Source: Pseudonocardiales bacterium
Lineage (GTDB): Bacteria; Actinomycetota; Actinomycetes; Mycobacteriales; Pseudonocardiaceae
Assembly: GCA_023252195.1 (NCBI GenBank)
Contig: JAHEXI010000001.1
Location: 62,001-126,000 of the forward strand
Reading direction: 5' to 3'
Length of the DNA: 64,000 nucleotides
In this document: positions 11,145 through 34,600 of the stretch, in pieces
How the letters are laid out: every line of letters starts with the position of its first letter
Position numbering within the stretch: position 1 is the first letter of the stretch
Notes under the pieces: generated by a model
Told to the model about the DNA's origin: nothing
Databases searched by the model: none
The model's input: only the letters and a program-made list of their open reading frames with translations
Made by a program: the position numbers and the translations under genes

Positions 11145-11485
11145 GCGGGTGGGTCCTTCGTGCTGGTCGGAGGTGGCAGCCAGCACGAACGCCCGGGTCA
11201 GAACAGGGTTGGTTCCAGCCCGGGCTCGCTGGTTTGCCGCCGTGGCGGGGTGAGAGGTTAGCCGCGGTGTCGTCGCTGTCGTGGTCAGGCGCATGGCGAG
11301 TCCGGAGTGATCGGTCAGCCTCGATCCGTCCGTGAGAGCGTCCCTGGTCTGGTGGACGTAGTCACAGCCGTGGAGCAGCCGGCAGGAGCTGGGCGCAGCA
11401 GTGGGCGTGGTCGTAGCGGTAGCCGAGGTCGGGCCGTCGCGCCCAGCTGTGCCCGACGCGATTAGGCACGCCCCAGACCAAAGGT

Positions 11486-11538
11486 TGGGCTTTTCCTGGG
11501 CATGTGCTTCACTGCCAAGCGTGCCCAGAAAAAGCCCA
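11486..11538. promoter_or_regulatory. Inverted repeat spanning the start codon of the cassette's first gene
   Basis: Arms 11486-11502 (TGGGCTTTTCCTGGGCA) and 11522-11538 (TGCCCAGAAAAAGCCCA) match at 16 of 17 positions, with a 19-base spacer. The right arm contains most of the GTG start codon at 11521-11523 and the first codons. It could be an operator for a regulator of the cassette or an RNA hairpin that hides the start. Confidence 0.6.
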
Positions 11539-12414
11539 GTCGCGGGTGAGGTGGCCGCAGGTCTGCGACGGCTGATCAAGGAGGGGTTGCCGGTGACCCC
11601 GTCGAGGGCGGACGCGGCTTTGCTGGAACTGCGGGGAATCGTGGCCCGGGCGGTGGACCCAGCCGACGATGCCAGCCTCACGGCGGCCCTCAATGGCACC
11701 TTGCGGGGGCTGCTGGCCCGGTTCCCGGACGTCCGCTACGCCTCGGCCGCGCGGGCGTTGTTCGGGCTGCCGCCGGCTGGGCCGGGTCAGAATCTCACCG
11801 TTCGCCGTGATCTGGCCGCTGCCGAGGCCGGTCATGAGGTGCACCACTTCCGCAAGCGAGTCGAACCCAAGCTGGTCGAGAGACTCGCCTGGGAGCTGCT
11901 TGCCGACGCCGACCGGTTCACCCGCACTCCGATGATCGCACCCCGGCTCGCTTCGGCGAGTGGGCGGCAACCCATCCTGGCCGACCCGTTCGCTTGGGAG
12001 GTGACCGAGCACGAGGAACAATTAAGCAAGCTGTGGTCGGCGCTCTACGCCGCCCGCGCCGAGTTGCTCGCGGTCGAGCGGCTGGTCAGTCTACGGGCCA
12101 GCCGGATCGAGTTGACCCACGCCGCGGTGACCGCGGCCTGGCGCTGGGCCGCCGCCCGCGCGGAGGCGATCAGCTACACCAGCGCTTACACCCAGGAGAT
12201 GGCGGTGGACCAGCTGATCACGTTGGCGGGCTGGATACCGGTGTTGACCGAGGCGCAGGCCTCGCGGCTGACCGAGGCCGCCGTCGGCGGCGCTCACCGC
12301 GAGCAGTTCGTGCACGCCCTGCACAACGAGACCGGCCTGGGCGACGCCTGGATCGACGGTCTCCTCAACCCGCTTCCCATCGGCACCTCAGACGAGAACG
12401 GACAACCGCAGTGA
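11521..12414 (+). CDS. Helical protein of unknown function, first gene of the aaRS-like/ASCH cassette
   Basis: A protein of about 297 residues from GTG 11521. It is rich in Ala, Leu and Arg and looks all-helical with no membrane segment. Notable stretches are RADAALLELRGIVARAVDPA, LNGTLRGLLARFPDVRYASA, LWSALYAARAELLAVERLVS and AAVTAAWRWAAARAEA. I do not recognise a named domain. A truncated copy of residues about 160-215 is found at 34425-34600, so this is a gene with paralogues. The stop overlaps the next start by 4 bp. It may be a nucleic-acid-binding or partner protein for the downstream enzymes. Confidence 0.7.
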   Translation: MPRKSPVAGEVAAGLRRLIKEGLPVTPSRADAALLELRGIVARAVDPADDASLTAALNGTLRGLLARFPDVRYASAARALFGLPPAGPGQNLTVRRDLAAAEAGHEVHHFRKRVEPKLVERLAWELLADADRFTRTPMIAPRLASASGRQPILADPFAWEVTEHEEQLSKLWSALYAARAELLAVERLVSLRASRIELTHAAVTAAWRWAAARAEAISYTSAYTQEMAVDQLITLAGWIPVLTEAQASRLTEAAVGGAHREQFVHALHNETGLGDAWIDGLLNPLPIGTSDENGQPQ

Positions 12415-13016
12415 CCACCACCAACCCCGACCTGACTGCCGCCCTCGACGCGGCATCCACCGCCGACCCACGCCGCTATGTCATCACCGGAGGTCCCTCA
12501 TCCGGCAAGGACGACTTGATCGAGGCCGTCCACGCAGCCGGAATCCCCTGCATGACCGAGGAACCCGGTCGGGAGATCTACCGCAAGCACCGCGAGCGCC
12601 TGGGCCGGCACCTGCGCCGGGAGGACCGACGCGAGTACTCCCTGGAAGTGCTCGAGGCGTTCATCGCCGAGTACACCGGCCACAAACACGGCATCAGGTT
12701 CTACAACCGGGGCATCCCGGATGGCTTCGGCTGGGAAGGATTCTTCGGCCTGCGACCCACCCCACAACTGGAGGAGGCCACGCGCCTGTATCGCTACGAC
12801 ACGGTCTTCGTGCTCGACCCGCTGGACACCTTCGAGGACCCCGACGACATCGTCTGGGCCAAGGACCGGGAAATCCGCCGCGTTCACGAGCTGATCGTGC
12901 AGGGCTACTACGACACCGGCTACGAACCAGTGTTCGTCGCCCCCGACTCCGCCGCCGCCCGGCTGGACCTCATCTGCGCCAACCTGCGCCTTCCCAAACC
13001 CAGCCGAGGAGCGTGA
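12411..13016 (+). CDS. P-loop ATPase/kinase-like protein with altered Walker A
   Basis: A 201-residue protein from GTG 12411. RRYVITGGPSSGKDDLIEAV is a P-loop like those of the AAA_28/NadR-type kinases (FVITGGPGSGKTT), but the residue after the Lys is Asp instead of Ser/Thr, which normally binds magnesium. CMTEEPGREIYRKH and YNRGIPDGFGWEGFFGL fit the lid and substrate region of that group, and YRYDTVFVLDPLDTF a Walker B strand. It is coupled to genes on both sides by GTGA overlaps. It may be a phosphotransferase with unusual metal use, or a binding protein that has lost catalysis. Confidence 0.75.
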   Translation: MTTTNPDLTAALDAASTADPRRYVITGGPSSGKDDLIEAVHAAGIPCMTEEPGREIYRKHRERLGRHLRREDRREYSLEVLEAFIAEYTGHKHGIRFYNRGIPDGFGWEGFFGLRPTPQLEEATRLYRYDTVFVLDPLDTFEDPDDIVWAKDREIRRVHELIVQGYYDTGYEPVFVAPDSAAARLDLICANLRLPKPSRGA

Positions 13017-13966
13017 CCACGATGGCCGCACCGAACCGCACTGCACCGAATCGCCCTGGGAGACCGTCGTTGCTGCTATCGCCGAACAGCGTGCTGGCGA
13101 ACGCGCTGCTGCGCACCATTGATCTCCTCCGGCCCCGCGTGCATGCAGCGCGACCGGCGCGGATCGAGTTCGTGGTTGGCACCCAGATCAACGGCGCGCC
13201 ACACCTCGGGACGAACCTGGTGCAGACTGCTGCGTTCCTGCTCGCCAAGACCGCCCGCCGCGAATTCTCCATTGACACCGTCGTCCGCTTCGGCGCACTG
13301 GACAACGCCCCACACGAGGTCGTACTCGACCCCGAGACGCACCACGCCTACCAGCAGACGTACTACCACGCGCTGGGCAAGGACCAGGTCGCCGCGCTGA
13401 TCGACACCTATTACACGCAGTTTTTCAATTCCCTGTCCGAGGCCACCGACACCGACTACGTGGTGGAGACGTACACAGACCAGCAGGCCACCCCTGGGTT
13501 CCGCGCGGAGTTCCTGCGCACCCTGGAGCGGCTGGAAAGCCTCCGCTGGTGGATGGCGCCCTCACACGGCACCGTGCACATCCGCATCCCGTGTCCCGGG
13601 TGCGGGTGGGCGGAAAAGCGCGCCGACCGAACCAAGCTCGCCCGCCTCGACGAGGACGGCGCCACGTTCACCGCGGTCTGCCTCGATCACGGCAGCTACG
13701 AAACCCACATCGACCCTGAGGACGATCAGCCCTACCTCGACCTCGCCACCCTCTATCGCAACCTGGTCAAGGAACGCGCGCTTGGCCGGGACGGCGACAC
13801 GCTGCATGTAGATGATGAAGGGCGGCGACTGGGTCTTCGGCTGCCAACTCGTCGACGGCGCTCTCGGCGCACTCGCCACCCCGGCAGCGCAGATGCCGAC
13901 GCGGATCTTCACGCCCCAGGTGCTCGCGCCGACCGGGGCGAAGCTGTCCAAGTCGTTGCTGCGTGA
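13013..13966 (+). CDS. Class I lysyl-tRNA-synthetase-like protein, N-terminal half (frame continues in 13812-14510)
   Basis: A Rossmann catalytic core like class I LysRS (LysK type). RIEFVVGTQINGAPHLGTNL holds a HIGH-like HLGT motif, RFGALDNAPHEV follows, and IPCPGCGWAEKRADRTKL with AVCLDHGSY is the zinc module found in that synthetase. Homology runs to LVKERALGRDGDTLHV at about 13810. There the frame is lost: removing one A from GTAGATGATGAAG would join it smoothly to the next frame (VMMKGGDWVFGCQLVDGALG). The remaining in-frame tail to 13966 is Arg-rich and unlike the family. GTG 13013 overlaps the previous stop by 4 bp. It could be a recent frameshift, a sequencing error or a recoding site. 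Confidence 0.75.
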   Translation: MTTMAAPNRTAPNRPGRPSLLLSPNSVLANALLRTIDLLRPRVHAARPARIEFVVGTQINGAPHLGTNLVQTAAFLLAKTARREFSIDTVVRFGALDNAPHEVVLDPETHHAYQQTYYHALGKDQVAALIDTYYTQFFNSLSEATDTDYVVETYTDQQATPGFRAEFLRTLERLESLRWWMAPSHGTVHIRIPCPGCGWAEKRADRTKLARLDEDGATFTAVCLDHGSYETHIDPEDDQPYLDLATLYRNLVKERALGRDGDTLHVDDEGRRLGLRLPTRRRRSRRTRHPGSADADADLHAPGARADRGEAVQVVAA

Positions 13967-14510
13967 ACAGGGCAACGGCGCCCTGCCTCCCGACGTCGAG
14001 CCCTGGATGCTCGACACCACCACCTGGCCCGACGGCACCGATGACTACGTCGACGCCCTGGTCTGGCTGGTCGGCGAACTGCTCACCGATCCCAAACACT
14101 TCTTCCGTTCGTTCACCGTCAAAGAGCTCGGCCGACTGATGACCGCACGCCCCACCGAACCCGCCGCCCGCGCCCACGAGATGGGCATCTACAAGCGCTA
14201 CTTCGACCTCATCGCCACCGGCCGCAAGACCACCGAAATCCGGGTAAACGACTCCAGTCGCAAAAAGATCAAGGAAGGCTCGCTGATCCGGTTCCGCTGC
14301 CAAGGTGACCAGATCCTCACCCGCGTCACCCGCATCGTCCGATACACCAGCTTCGACGAGATGTTCGACCACGAATCCGTCACCTCAGTCAACCCACTCG
14401 CCACCCGCGACGAGCAGCTGGCCAACATCCGCCAGATCTATCCACCCGAGCGCGAAGCCCTCGGCGTCCTGGCCATCGGCATCGAGCTGGTCGACCTACC
14501 ACCGATATGA
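13812..14510 (+). CDS. Class I LysRS-like C-terminal half fused to an ASCH domain
   Basis: A 232-residue frame starting at two Met codons. Residues 1-100 continue the synthetase core: KGGDWVFGCQLVDGALG, then APTGAKLSKSLLREQGNGAL with the KMSKS-type loop KLSKS that grips ATP. The long C-terminal anticodon-binding domain of class I LysRS is absent. In its place, from about residue 118, is an ASCH domain: GIYKRYFDLIATGRKTTEIR, SLIRFRCQGDQILTRVTRIV, ending ALGVLAIGIELV. ASCH domains are PUA-like and bind RNA or nucleotides. The fusion suggests an aminoacyl-adenylate enzyme acting on something other than ordinary tRNA anticodons. Confidence 0.75.
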   Translation: MMKGGDWVFGCQLVDGALGALATPAAQMPTRIFTPQVLAPTGAKLSKSLLREQGNGALPPDVEPWMLDTTTWPDGTDDYVDALVWLVGELLTDPKHFFRSFTVKELGRLMTARPTEPAARAHEMGIYKRYFDLIATGRKTTEIRVNDSSRKKIKEGSLIRFRCQGDQILTRVTRIVRYTSFDEMFDHESVTSVNPLATRDEQLANIRQIYPPEREALGVLAIGIELVDLPPI

Positions 14511-14772: not shown

Positions 14773-15003
14773 TCAGCGGGGGTCGAATCGGCCTCGCTTG
14801 ATCTCGCGGAGGAATGCCGGCATGTCGGGTACCAGGAGCACCGGGCCTGCGGGGTTCTTGCTGTCCCGGATCGCACCTGGTGTGTGCGCCAGTTCCACGC
14901 AGTTGTTATCTGCCCCACTGTGGCTGGATTTCCGCCAGGCCAGTTCGACGCAGTTGTCTTGTGGGCCGCTGTGGCTGGATTTCCGCCAGCGCATCTCGGT
15001 CAT
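14773..15003 (-). CDS. DUF397 protein with a duplicated motif
   Basis: A 76-residue protein. The DUF397 hallmark WRKSSHSG...NCVELA occurs twice in tandem: WRKSSHSGPQDNCVELA then WRKSSHSGADNNCVELA. A typical tail follows (GAIRDSKNPAGPVLLVPDMP, then AFLREIKRG). A single copy is usual, so this one has an internal duplication. DUF397 proteins are found next to XRE/DUF5753 regulators in actinobacteria and are thought to act with them as an antitoxin-like or signalling pair. It overlaps the regulator stop by 4 bp, so the two are co-translated. Confidence 0.85.
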   Translation of the reverse strand: MTEMRWRKSSHSGPQDNCVELAWRKSSHSGADNNCVELAHTPGAIRDSKNPAGPVLLVPDMPAFLREIKRGRFDPR

Positions 15004-15851
15004 GTCGCAGCCTCCAATTCGTGAGCTGTCCGGGTGATGAGGCTGAGCGAGTCGGCCGGACTCATCGCCAGCTGGTGGATCTTGTCCACCGCGGACTTGT
15101 AGTCAGCCACGTCGTCCGGCTCGGACACGAACGCGCCCGTCCGGTAGTGCGCGAGCAGGACGATGGACGGCGCGCCGTCGAAGTCGTAGAGCACGAACGG
15201 TCCCAGCAGGCCCGGGTGCCAGCCCTGGGAGGATCGGACGACCTGAATGGTGATCGTGTTCGACTCGGCGAGCTTGACCAGGTGGCGGAGCTGGTCGGCC
15301 ATCACCCGAGGCCCGCCGATCAGCTCGTGCAGAGCGGCCTCGCCGAGCAGCGCGGTCAGCCGGACAGGGTTGCTGCGCGTGACGACGTCGCGCCGTCCCA
15401 TCCGCACCAGCACCCCCGCTTCGACCTCCCCAGGGGGAAGAGCGTCGCCACTGATGATCGCTCGCGCGTAGTCGGAGGTCTGGAGCAGGCCGGTGACGAG
15501 GTGCGGCGACCAGTCGGTGATCGCCGCGGCGGCCCGTTCACACTCCATGGTCCCGGCGAGCTGCTGGGAGATGCCGGGGATGCCGACGGTCAGCCAGTCC
15601 TGGTCACCCGCGTGCCGGCCCAGAGCGAGGATGGCTTCCCGGTCGTCGCCGGTCACGCCGATCGCGGTGAGGTAGCTGGCGACGTCCTCCAGGCGCGGCA
15701 CCCGCTTGCTGGTCTCCCAGTACGAGACCACGGAGTGTGCGGTGCCGAGCCGGCGGGCGACCTCGCGCACGCTGACCTTGGCCGCCTCGCGCGCTTGGCG
15801 AAGCGCTCCGGCTAGTGCCCGGGCGCGGGGTGCGCCACCGGGTTCGGTCAC
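15000..15851 (-). CDS. XRE HTH / DUF5753 transcriptional regulator
   Basis: A 283-residue protein. The N-terminal helix-turn-helix is AKVSVREVARRLGTAHSVVS (residues about 20-40). The rest is the DUF5753 domain: VTGLLQTSDYARAIISGDAL, TRSNPVRLTALLGEAALHEL and the closing ADYKSAVDKIHQLAMSPADS. These regulators come with DUF397 partners and are abundant in Streptomyces and Pseudonocardiales. The divergent spacer holds a perfect palindrome (15908-15947) that is a natural binding site for it. Confidence 0.9.
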   Translation of the reverse strand: MTEPGGAPRARALAGALRQAREAAKVSVREVARRLGTAHSVVSYWETSKRVPRLEDVASYLTAIGVTGDDREAILALGRHAGDQDWLTVGIPGISQQLAGTMECERAAAAITDWSPHLVTGLLQTSDYARAIISGDALPPGEVEAGVLVRMGRRDVVTRSNPVRLTALLGEAALHELIGGPRVMADQLRHLVKLAESNTITIQVVRSSQGWHPGLLGPFVLYDFDGAPSIVLLAHYRTGAFVSEPDDVADYKSAVDKIHQLAMSPADSLSLITRTAHELEAAT

Positions 15852-34355: not shown

Positions 34356-34424
34356 CACACCGTTGGACGATCGAGCTCACCGGCCCAGCCCGACGAGCAC
34401 TCGAAGCAAACCTTCCCGAGCCGG
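34351..34424 (+). pseudogene. RelE/ParE toxin N-terminal fragment
   Basis: From GTG 34351: VTHRWTIELTGPARRALEAN then LPEP, the first strand and helix of a RelE-type ribonuclease. After about 24 codons homology stops abruptly and the DNA becomes a copy of part of the 11521-12414 gene. The overlap GTGA with the Phd remnant supports the identity. Confidence 0.6.
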
Positions 34425-34600
34425 GTCGCCGAGCGCGAGGAGCAGCTGACCCGGTCGTGGTCGGCGATCTACGCCGCTCGCGTTGAGCTGCTTGCCGTCG
34501 AACGGCTGATCAGCCTAGACGTCGCCCGGGCGGAAATCATCACCACGGCGGTGACCGCGGCCTGGCGGTGGGCCGCCGCGGCGATGGCGATCAGGGCGGC
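34425..34600 (+). pseudogene. Truncated copy of the cassette's first gene (11521-12414 family)
   Basis: Plus-strand codons read VAEREEQLTRSWSAIYAARV, ELLAVERLISLDVA and AVTAAWRWAAAA. The intact gene at 11521 has VTEHEEQLSKLWSALYAARA, ELLAVERLVSLRAS and AVTAAWRWAAAR at the same spacing. Similarity covers about 58 codons with no start and no end. It is joined directly to the RelE scrap. This is a recombination scar showing that the cassette once had, or sat near, a second copy. Confidence 0.75.

Follow-up and report, generated by a model that had tools for sequence, protein, structure and literature searches.

We analyzed a 64,000-nucleotide stretch of DNA from a Pseudonocardiales bacterium (GenBank assembly GCA_023252195.1, contig JAHEXI010000001.1, positions 62,001 to 126,000; hereafter the window) and found at 11486–14510 a mobile accessory cassette whose copy here is damaged. 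The constant part of this cassette is a pair formed by a catalytic core resembling class I aminoacyl-tRNA synthetases and an ASCH domain, a module that binds RNA or nucleotides. Computation established the motifs of the core, its predicted fold, the missing anticodon-binding domain, a near-obligate coupling to ASCH, varied genomic sites, purifying selection and a frame break in the window copy. We tentatively propose that the pair is an amino-acid-activating enzyme, distinct from the housekeeping lysyl-tRNA synthetase (LysRS), whose core would acylate an acceptor chosen by ASCH.

The association of the core with ASCH is the best-conserved feature of the family. A scan of the genome contigs of 84,980 species with two peptide patterns yielded at least 191 relatives, and the best 80 of 191 were pooled with further loci drawn from genomes, plasmids, phages and viral contigs. 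Seven of the 118 loci lacked a core open reading frame (ORF) at E 1e-10 (L005, L006, L007, L016, L019, L020, L105) and ten more were set aside, namely the window (L001, L014, L017), duplicates (L009–L012, L018, L027) and the decayed L004, which L009 repeats. This left 101 loci, still including identical or near-identical pairs (e.g., L013/L115 and L031/L032). ASCH is encoded directly downstream of the core in 99 of the 101, the exceptions being distant homologs on Pantoea and Macrococcus plasmids. The two coding regions overlap by ATGA in 86 loci, are fused in 11 and are separated by a short gap in two. All 99 of these ASCH domains retain the K..E.R signature (95 by pattern, four read from printed strings), and the window domain matches PF04266 with 50.8 bits (cut-off 21.2). 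An earlier note on this DNA had named ordinary LysRS homologs, or the lack of a conserved neighborhood, as findings that would speak against it; what we found is a neighborhood in which ASCH almost always follows the core. Of the note's three-gene cassette, the core-ASCH pair is the constant part; the other two genes (orf1 and the window type of P-loop gene) were found with a single clade.

The fold was predicted for an intact fused relative, L003, using AlphaFold (predicted local distance difference test, pLDDT, 87.5; predicted template modeling score, pTM, 0.86). The model comprises a core of about 370 residues followed by the ASCH domain in the position of the anticodon-binding domain, in agreement with the earlier claim that the latter is missing and replaced; many stand-alone cores are 366–376 residues long. 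The top fold match in the PDB is the class I LysRS 1irx (E 1.6e-9), and lower-ranked matches of the core include GluRS, which comes first among them, ArgRS, MetRS, CysRS, PyrN and BshC. The motifs P-H-x-G-T, GAKxxKS and C..C / C..H are invariant in a 30-row core alignment; anywhere in the 101 core ORFs, the pattern PH.GT occurs in 99, GAK[LIVM][SA]KS in 101, C..HG in 101 and CP-C in 94. On the basis of the model, we assign the core to subclass Ib, as a LysRS-I/GluRS-like protein, an assignment that carries no claim of lysine specificity. The predicted fold thus bears out the earlier description of a LysRS-type class I core (at a TM-score of only 0.45); lysine specificity is not supported. In a viral structure library, the top fold match of the core is an unnamed 511-residue protein, A0A345MNG5 (E 7.6e-10). 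Halogranum tailed virus 1 likewise has a protein resembling the core, R4T703 (375 residues, named 'lysine--tRNA ligase').

Several observations weigh against the proposed amino-acid-activating enzyme. The alignment to 1irx is loose (TM-score 0.45 by query and 0.44 by target, root-mean-square deviation 10.4 over 419 columns, 9% identity). A HMMER profile of 30 core sequences gave 0 matches in the PDB even at E 10, and at E 5 none of the Pfam synthetase families matched the actinobacterial core. The hhalign P-values are weak, GluRS (2.5e-4) scoring better than LysRS (2.2e-3), in a comparison of LysRS-I, Cys/MshC, GluRS and MetRS whose templates are too shallow to decide (effective number of sequences 1.0–2.6). 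The last residue of the HIGH motif is Thr in the core and Asn in Streptomyces LysRS-I. Finally, the distant Pantoea and Macrococcus members lack ASCH and lie beside biosynthetic-type genes, an indication of small-molecule chemistry in the family at large.

The actinobacterial core also lacks a synthetase match in NCBIfam, and PF01921 (tRNA-synt_1f) is unmatched by the window pieces and by three intact relatives; judged by primary structure, the similarity of the core to LysRS is almost gone. A sub-cut-off match provides a sequence bridge between the two families: the Macrococcus plasmid homolog L025 (tblastn E 3e-18) matches PF01921 with E 2.5e-5 and 23.8 bits (cut-off 27). The Pantoea homolog L024 has no PF01921 match. 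A supplementary or drug-resistant LysRS would be expected to show the LysRS-I-like predicted fold, and we regard it as highly improbable all the same, since the anticodon-binding domain is missing and the LysRS motifs GxDH and WxVDWPxRW are replaced by GGDW and LATLYRN (aligned by eye with Streptomyces LysRS-I). The His and Trp of these LysRS motifs are involved in lysine binding. Moreover, G485, a genome that carries the core-ASCH pair, matches PF01921 at a separate locus (391 bits; open frame of 725 residues). The 4.74-Mb genome of the window (G000; 48 contigs) has no PF01921 match. We therefore rejected an ordinary LysRS, given the lack of the anticodon-binding domain, of a PF01921 match above the cut-off, and the separate gene in G485. 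In sum, the core shares with class I LysRS (PF01921; 1irx) the predicted catalytic fold and the order of the HIGH-like, zinc-type and KMSKS-like motifs, and differs from it in its 9% identity in the fold alignment, its mobility, the ASCH domain replacing the anticodon-binding domain, and its coexistence with a separate PF01921 gene in G485. Contig 5 of the window's genome also encodes a third CysRS/MshC-like protein (PF01406; 260929–261795, about 400 residues) besides two stronger matches, and similar matches are present in same-genus genomes.

Enzymes with a class I synthetase-like core can function without tRNA. PyrN contains such a domain and uses a small acceptor, as described in PMC8664883. 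The core could itself be a tRNA-independent ligase, similar to MshC or the MetRS-like domain of PyrN, that activates an amino acid and attaches it to a small amine or alcohol; in this case, ASCH would bind a nucleotide-like metabolite or have a regulatory role. We consider this rather unlikely for the core-ASCH pair; nevertheless, the context of the distant homologs and the PyrN precedent keep it a strong rival, and PyrN and BshC are among the fold matches. On the Macrococcus plasmid (L025, 5503–9417), the synthetase-like core lies with two ATP-grasp proteins and a small uncharacterized protein, and a major facilitator superfamily (MFS) transporter is encoded nearby. The Pantoea plasmid (L024, 7234–11014) encodes a methyltransferase, the core, a LOG-type protein, a DMT transporter and a Ham1-type pyrophosphatase, a gene run that looks like a pathway for a nucleotide-type metabolite. 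By contrast, the upstream clusters tallied in actinobacterial loci include no constant biosynthetic partner, and the sole constant partner seen is the PUA-like ASCH. The MetRS-like domain of PyrN/Spb40 and MshC have the class I synthetase-like core in common with our family, and neither has an ASCH domain; the partner of PyrN is a cupin, unlike that of the core, and MshC has no partner domain. Neither cupin nor lysine N-hydroxylase was named among the Pfam-scanned representatives of neighbor clusters, in scans not aimed at these two families.

Known ASCH proteins offer partial parallels. The solved folds nearest to the C-terminal part of L003, PH0355 (2z0t; 39% identity) and PF0455 (1s04; 34%), are ASCH-fold proteins roughly 110 residues long; neither has a synthetase core, and they are titled as hypothetical or by locus name. 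The N4-acetylcytidine amidohydrolase YqfB has the catalytic triad Lys21-Thr24-Glu74, with Thr24 as nucleophile, and Arg26, according to PMC6972931. Its ASCH fold and the spacing of its active-site Lys and Arg are shared with the cassette domain; however, the position of Thr24, placed by this spacing, is occupied by Glu in 99 of 99 cassette ASCH domains, so that a YqfB-type triad is not found.

The genes upstream of the core form a loose association, unlike ASCH. They were tallied in the 82 of 101 loci with at least 4.2 kb of upstream DNA (15 had too little DNA and four minus-strand loci were left out). At least one labeled family was found in 69 loci and none in 13. The counts are 27 loci for methyltransferases, 25 for regulator-like cluster c2, 23 for HATPase, nine for the helix-turn-helix (HTH) cluster c9 and four for GntR, among others; the HTH-like cluster c14 (seven loci) occurs with DUF218 (nine) and WbqC (eight), and the HTH cluster c36 (five) with an HD phosphohydrolase (four). 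Recurrent upstream sets are exemplified by Streptomyces loci L046, L065 and L092 (a regulator-like gene with a methyltransferase, DUF218 with WbqC, or an HD phosphohydrolase). Regulator-like genes are present within 4.2 kb upstream in 60 of the 82 loci; the HTH or GntR label is backed by Pfam in 22 of these (c6, c9, c36 and c17) and is weaker in 38 (c14 matches HTH_31 below the cut-off; c2 and c29 were called HTH by eye and have no HTH match). Such neighbors would suit a catalytically dead regulator that binds RNA or a metabolite and merely retains the synthetase fold. We find this improbable: the ATP-binding motifs are invariant in the 30 aligned rows, which argues against a dead enzyme, and both halves of the gene are under purifying selection.

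In the window, the cassette and associated elements were mapped as follows.

11486–11502, + strand: operator-like element, upstream arm of a 17-nucleotide inverted pair
11522–11538, − strand: operator-like element, downstream arm in inverted orientation; overlaps the start codon of orf1
11521–12414, + strand: orf1, all-helical protein of no known family; GTG start, placed by alignment with relatives
12411–13016, + strand: AAA_28 P-loop gene (PF13521, E 1.9e-23); GTGA overlap on each side; Walker A GGPSSGKD
13013–13807, + strand: synthetase-like core, 5′ part; HIGH-like PHLGT at 13199–13213, CPGC at 13592–13603, CLDH at 13679–13690
13800–13812, + strand: +1 frame break relative to intact relatives (alignment with continuous relatives)
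13812–14180, + strand: core, 3′ part, in the shifted frame; GGDW, and KLSKS at 13941–13955
14181–14510, + strand: ASCH domain and gene end (PF04266, E 2.9e-13, residues 124–227 of ORF 13812–14510)
34401–34592, + strand: relic of another cassette copy, orf1 fragment (profile match E 1.2e-20 at G000:C31:96401-96592)

Much of the gene layout given in the earlier note was confirmed: the helical ORF 11521–12414 has no Pfam family at E 1, the small P-loop protein at 12411–13016 belongs to AAA_28, and GTGA overlaps at 12411–12414 (orf1/AAA_28) and 13013–13016 (AAA_28/core) couple the three genes. The HIGH-like (HLGT), zinc-type and KLSKS motifs can all be read in the window, across two frames. The note's single open gene for core and ASCH does not hold, having joined two frames: the synthetase-like gene keeps one frame as far as about 13800, and its remainder, with KLSKS and ASCH, is read in the +1 frame from 13812, the open frame of the 5′ part continuing out of register to 13966. 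The break lies inside the core, near residue 265, between the zinc-type motif and KLSKS. Stand-alone cores end near residue 370, so the break is not the core/ASCH border. Three aligned relatives (L002, L003, L008) are uninterrupted across this point, the intact gene encoding 491–496 residues. They need no shift, and we rejected programmed frameshifting for the window protein on these relatives, beyond which no evidence was sought. The ratio of nonsynonymous to synonymous substitution rates between the window and an intact same-genus locus (L173) is 0.34 for orf1, 0.085 for the AAA_28 gene, 0.18 for the 5′ core and 0.15 for the 3′ core with ASCH; relative to L003, it is 0.12 before and 0.21 after the break. 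Purifying selection on either side indicates a break that arose recently or was introduced in assembly, and the data are compatible with both a mutation and an assembly error.

Orf1 has no Pfam, PADLOC or PHROG family. Its AlphaFold model is mainly helical (pLDDT 75, pTM 0.47) and retrieved nothing from the PDB below E 0.001; the protein is conserved within the fused clade. The window P-loop protein matches PF13521 with 83.9 bits (cut-off 27). Its Walker A motif is GK[DE] in 12 of 12 aligned sequences, with an acidic residue in place of the Ser/Thr of the standard GxxxxGK[ST]; kinase activity should hence not be assumed, and the earlier suggestion of a kinase-like partner is unsupported.

We found orf1 and the window-type AAA_28 proteins alongside a single clade of fused pairs, the whole, including the operator-like element, forming a unit of about 3 kb. 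Ten fused loci of the window type fall on one side of a branch with support 82/89, in a tree rooted at its midpoint in which the distant pair sits on a long branch; they come from Pseudonocardiaceae, Actinomadura, a Streptomyces plasmid, an actinobacterial metagenome-assembled genome and two viral contigs. The remaining fused pair, L084, is placed among Streptomyces. Within the order, the core matched seven of 298 genomes and orf1 five, in an apparently identical draw. The strong orf1 matches are confined to three of the 298 (G000, G255, G271), each with a core; G036 and G045 have weak matches limited to the N-terminal part, the cores of G259 and G219 are decayed and orf1 is unmatched there, and the core matches in G007 and G095 are marginal (E 4e-4 to 8e-4). 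The fused profile matched four of 396 genomes of the phylum. Among plasmids, the three records with orf1 are the same three that carry the fused cassette. AAA_28 matched ten plasmid records, the three cassette records at 66% identity or more and seven others at 27–34%, these seven being absent from the plasmid core matches. In viral contigs, orf1 and AAA_28 were found only in the two that hold the cassette, and phage records gave no orf1 match. On the plasmid of Amycolatopsis sp. AA4 (L021, 8001–9476), the fused core-ASCH frame is open; the gene table, incomplete by design, lists the ASCH end only.

The candidate operator is a 17-nucleotide inverted pair, TGGGCTTTTYCTGGGCA, that flanks and overlaps the orf1 start, with arms 94% complementary and 19 nucleotides apart. 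Its pattern has two matches in the window against 0.11 expected, and the two arms at orf1 are the only exact matches in the whole genome; with one mismatch allowed, there is one additional genomic site (three sites for the reversed control pattern). Exact matches were found in nine of 178 loci, and the element is visible by eye upstream of orf1 in each of the ten loci whose upstream DNA could be read. In six, it lies inverted across the orf1 start (the window, L173, L021, L115, L116, L176); three diverged loci (L022, L174, L175) have direct repeats of it, and L035 has one copy with a partial inverted arm. Six loci fall outside this count, either truncated (L003, L118) or lacking usable upstream DNA or orf1 (L002, L008, L013, L010). 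The second arm is partly coding, so some of its conservation may be at the protein level. The RNA of 11483–11545 folds with −36.2 kcal/mol (z −4.9), and an RNA hairpin is a possible alternative nature of the element. The privacy of the site suggests a regulator inside the cassette, with orf1 as the candidate by exclusion. Just downstream of the cassette, at 15000–15851 on the minus strand, the window encodes an HTH/DUF5753 regulator; comparable regulators lie near some core loci, and such regulators are common in actinobacteria.

The distribution of the cassette within the genus is patchy, with some match in eight of 11 same-genus genomes. G800 has an intact copy whose DNA is 94% identical to the window over 11471–14505, with no match elsewhere in the 12 kb compared; G802 has a diverged intact copy and G797 a broken one. 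A copy with an internal deletion lies in G804 at the site orthologous to window 34.43–34.73 kb, where the window has the orf1 relic 34401–34592. This relic lies between exonuclease III-like and glyoxalase-like genes (named by eye), and the same-genus locus L176 has a cassette at the orthologous site. Only 3′ ends of ASCH remain on contig 41 of the window's genome (174548–174718) and in G795, and L178 is likewise a short relic limited to the 3′ end of ASCH. The ASCH matches of G801 and G798 are diverged, and G796, G799 and G803 have no cassette match. The cassette moves, or is exchanged, as the operator together with its three genes; no terminal repeats were seen by eye at its ends, and no search was aimed at transposases.

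Core-ASCH pairs also occur on Streptomyces contigs, plasmids and phages. Three phage records have a match, two of them of Picard, the phages being Picard and Mojorita. In Picard, a 371-residue core and a 119-residue ASCH, labeled 'tRNA synthetase' and 'RNA binding protein', are separate genes directly before a serine integrase. Among the neighbor clusters in Streptomyces are a relaxase, whose cluster is present in 16 loci, a MobC-like protein that scores slightly below the cut-off, a ParA-type ATPase and a serine recombinase; these labels were tested on one member per cluster, and the clusters rest on composition-based ORF picking, which misses small genes.

This carriage on phages and plasmids, the nearby relaxase and recombinase genes, and the patchy, decaying copies at differing sites within one genus would fit a phage-host conflict module (defense, counter-defense or addiction), in which the core-ASCH protein charges, mis-charges or marks tRNA or other RNA. 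Mobility is, however, common to many non-defense genes, and PADLOC gave no convincing match to the four window pieces (best E 0.033), an absence that is weak evidence. A conflict role is in our view unlikely, and the defense function raised in the earlier note found no support.

The two phage families are already known by bare PHROG names without a described function: PHROG 35625 ('tRNA synthetase') matches the L003 core (E 2.1e-124) and PHROG 19935 ('RNA-binding protein') its ASCH domain (E 1.6e-27). Among the titles listed in searches of the open-license PubMed Central (PMC) literature on ASCH, LysRS paralogs, prophage and defense, there was no paper on the core-ASCH pair. ASCH and EVE contexts are described in PMC7641849, where 'synthetase' occurs once, in a reference; PMC12945691 deals with synthetase-like biosynthetic enzymes and PMC1475646 with LysRS distribution.

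Under the amino-acid-activating reading that we prefer, the HxGT and KLSKS motifs would activate an amino acid with ATP to give an aminoacyl-adenylate. The acyl group might then be passed to a nucleic acid or nucleotide selected by ASCH instead of an anticodon-binding domain, and in the fused clade the AAA_28 P-loop protein might prepare or sense a nucleotide-type acceptor. More speculatively still, orf1 could control the private operator. A farther-reaching version, to which we give fairly low credence, is a widespread mobile aminoacylation system outside translation that charges an ASCH-chosen acceptor (an RNA, possibly modified, a DNA base or a nucleotide) to the advantage of plasmids and temperate phages.

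The interest of these results lies in the widespread, mobile and near-obligate pair of synthetase core and ASCH rather than in the window copy. Because the two are separate small genes in Picard, the choice of acceptor by ASCH can be tested with two purified proteins. The ASCH domain in place of the anticodon-binding domain, the near-universal translational coupling and the carriage by phages and plasmids suggest amino-acid attachment outside protein synthesis.

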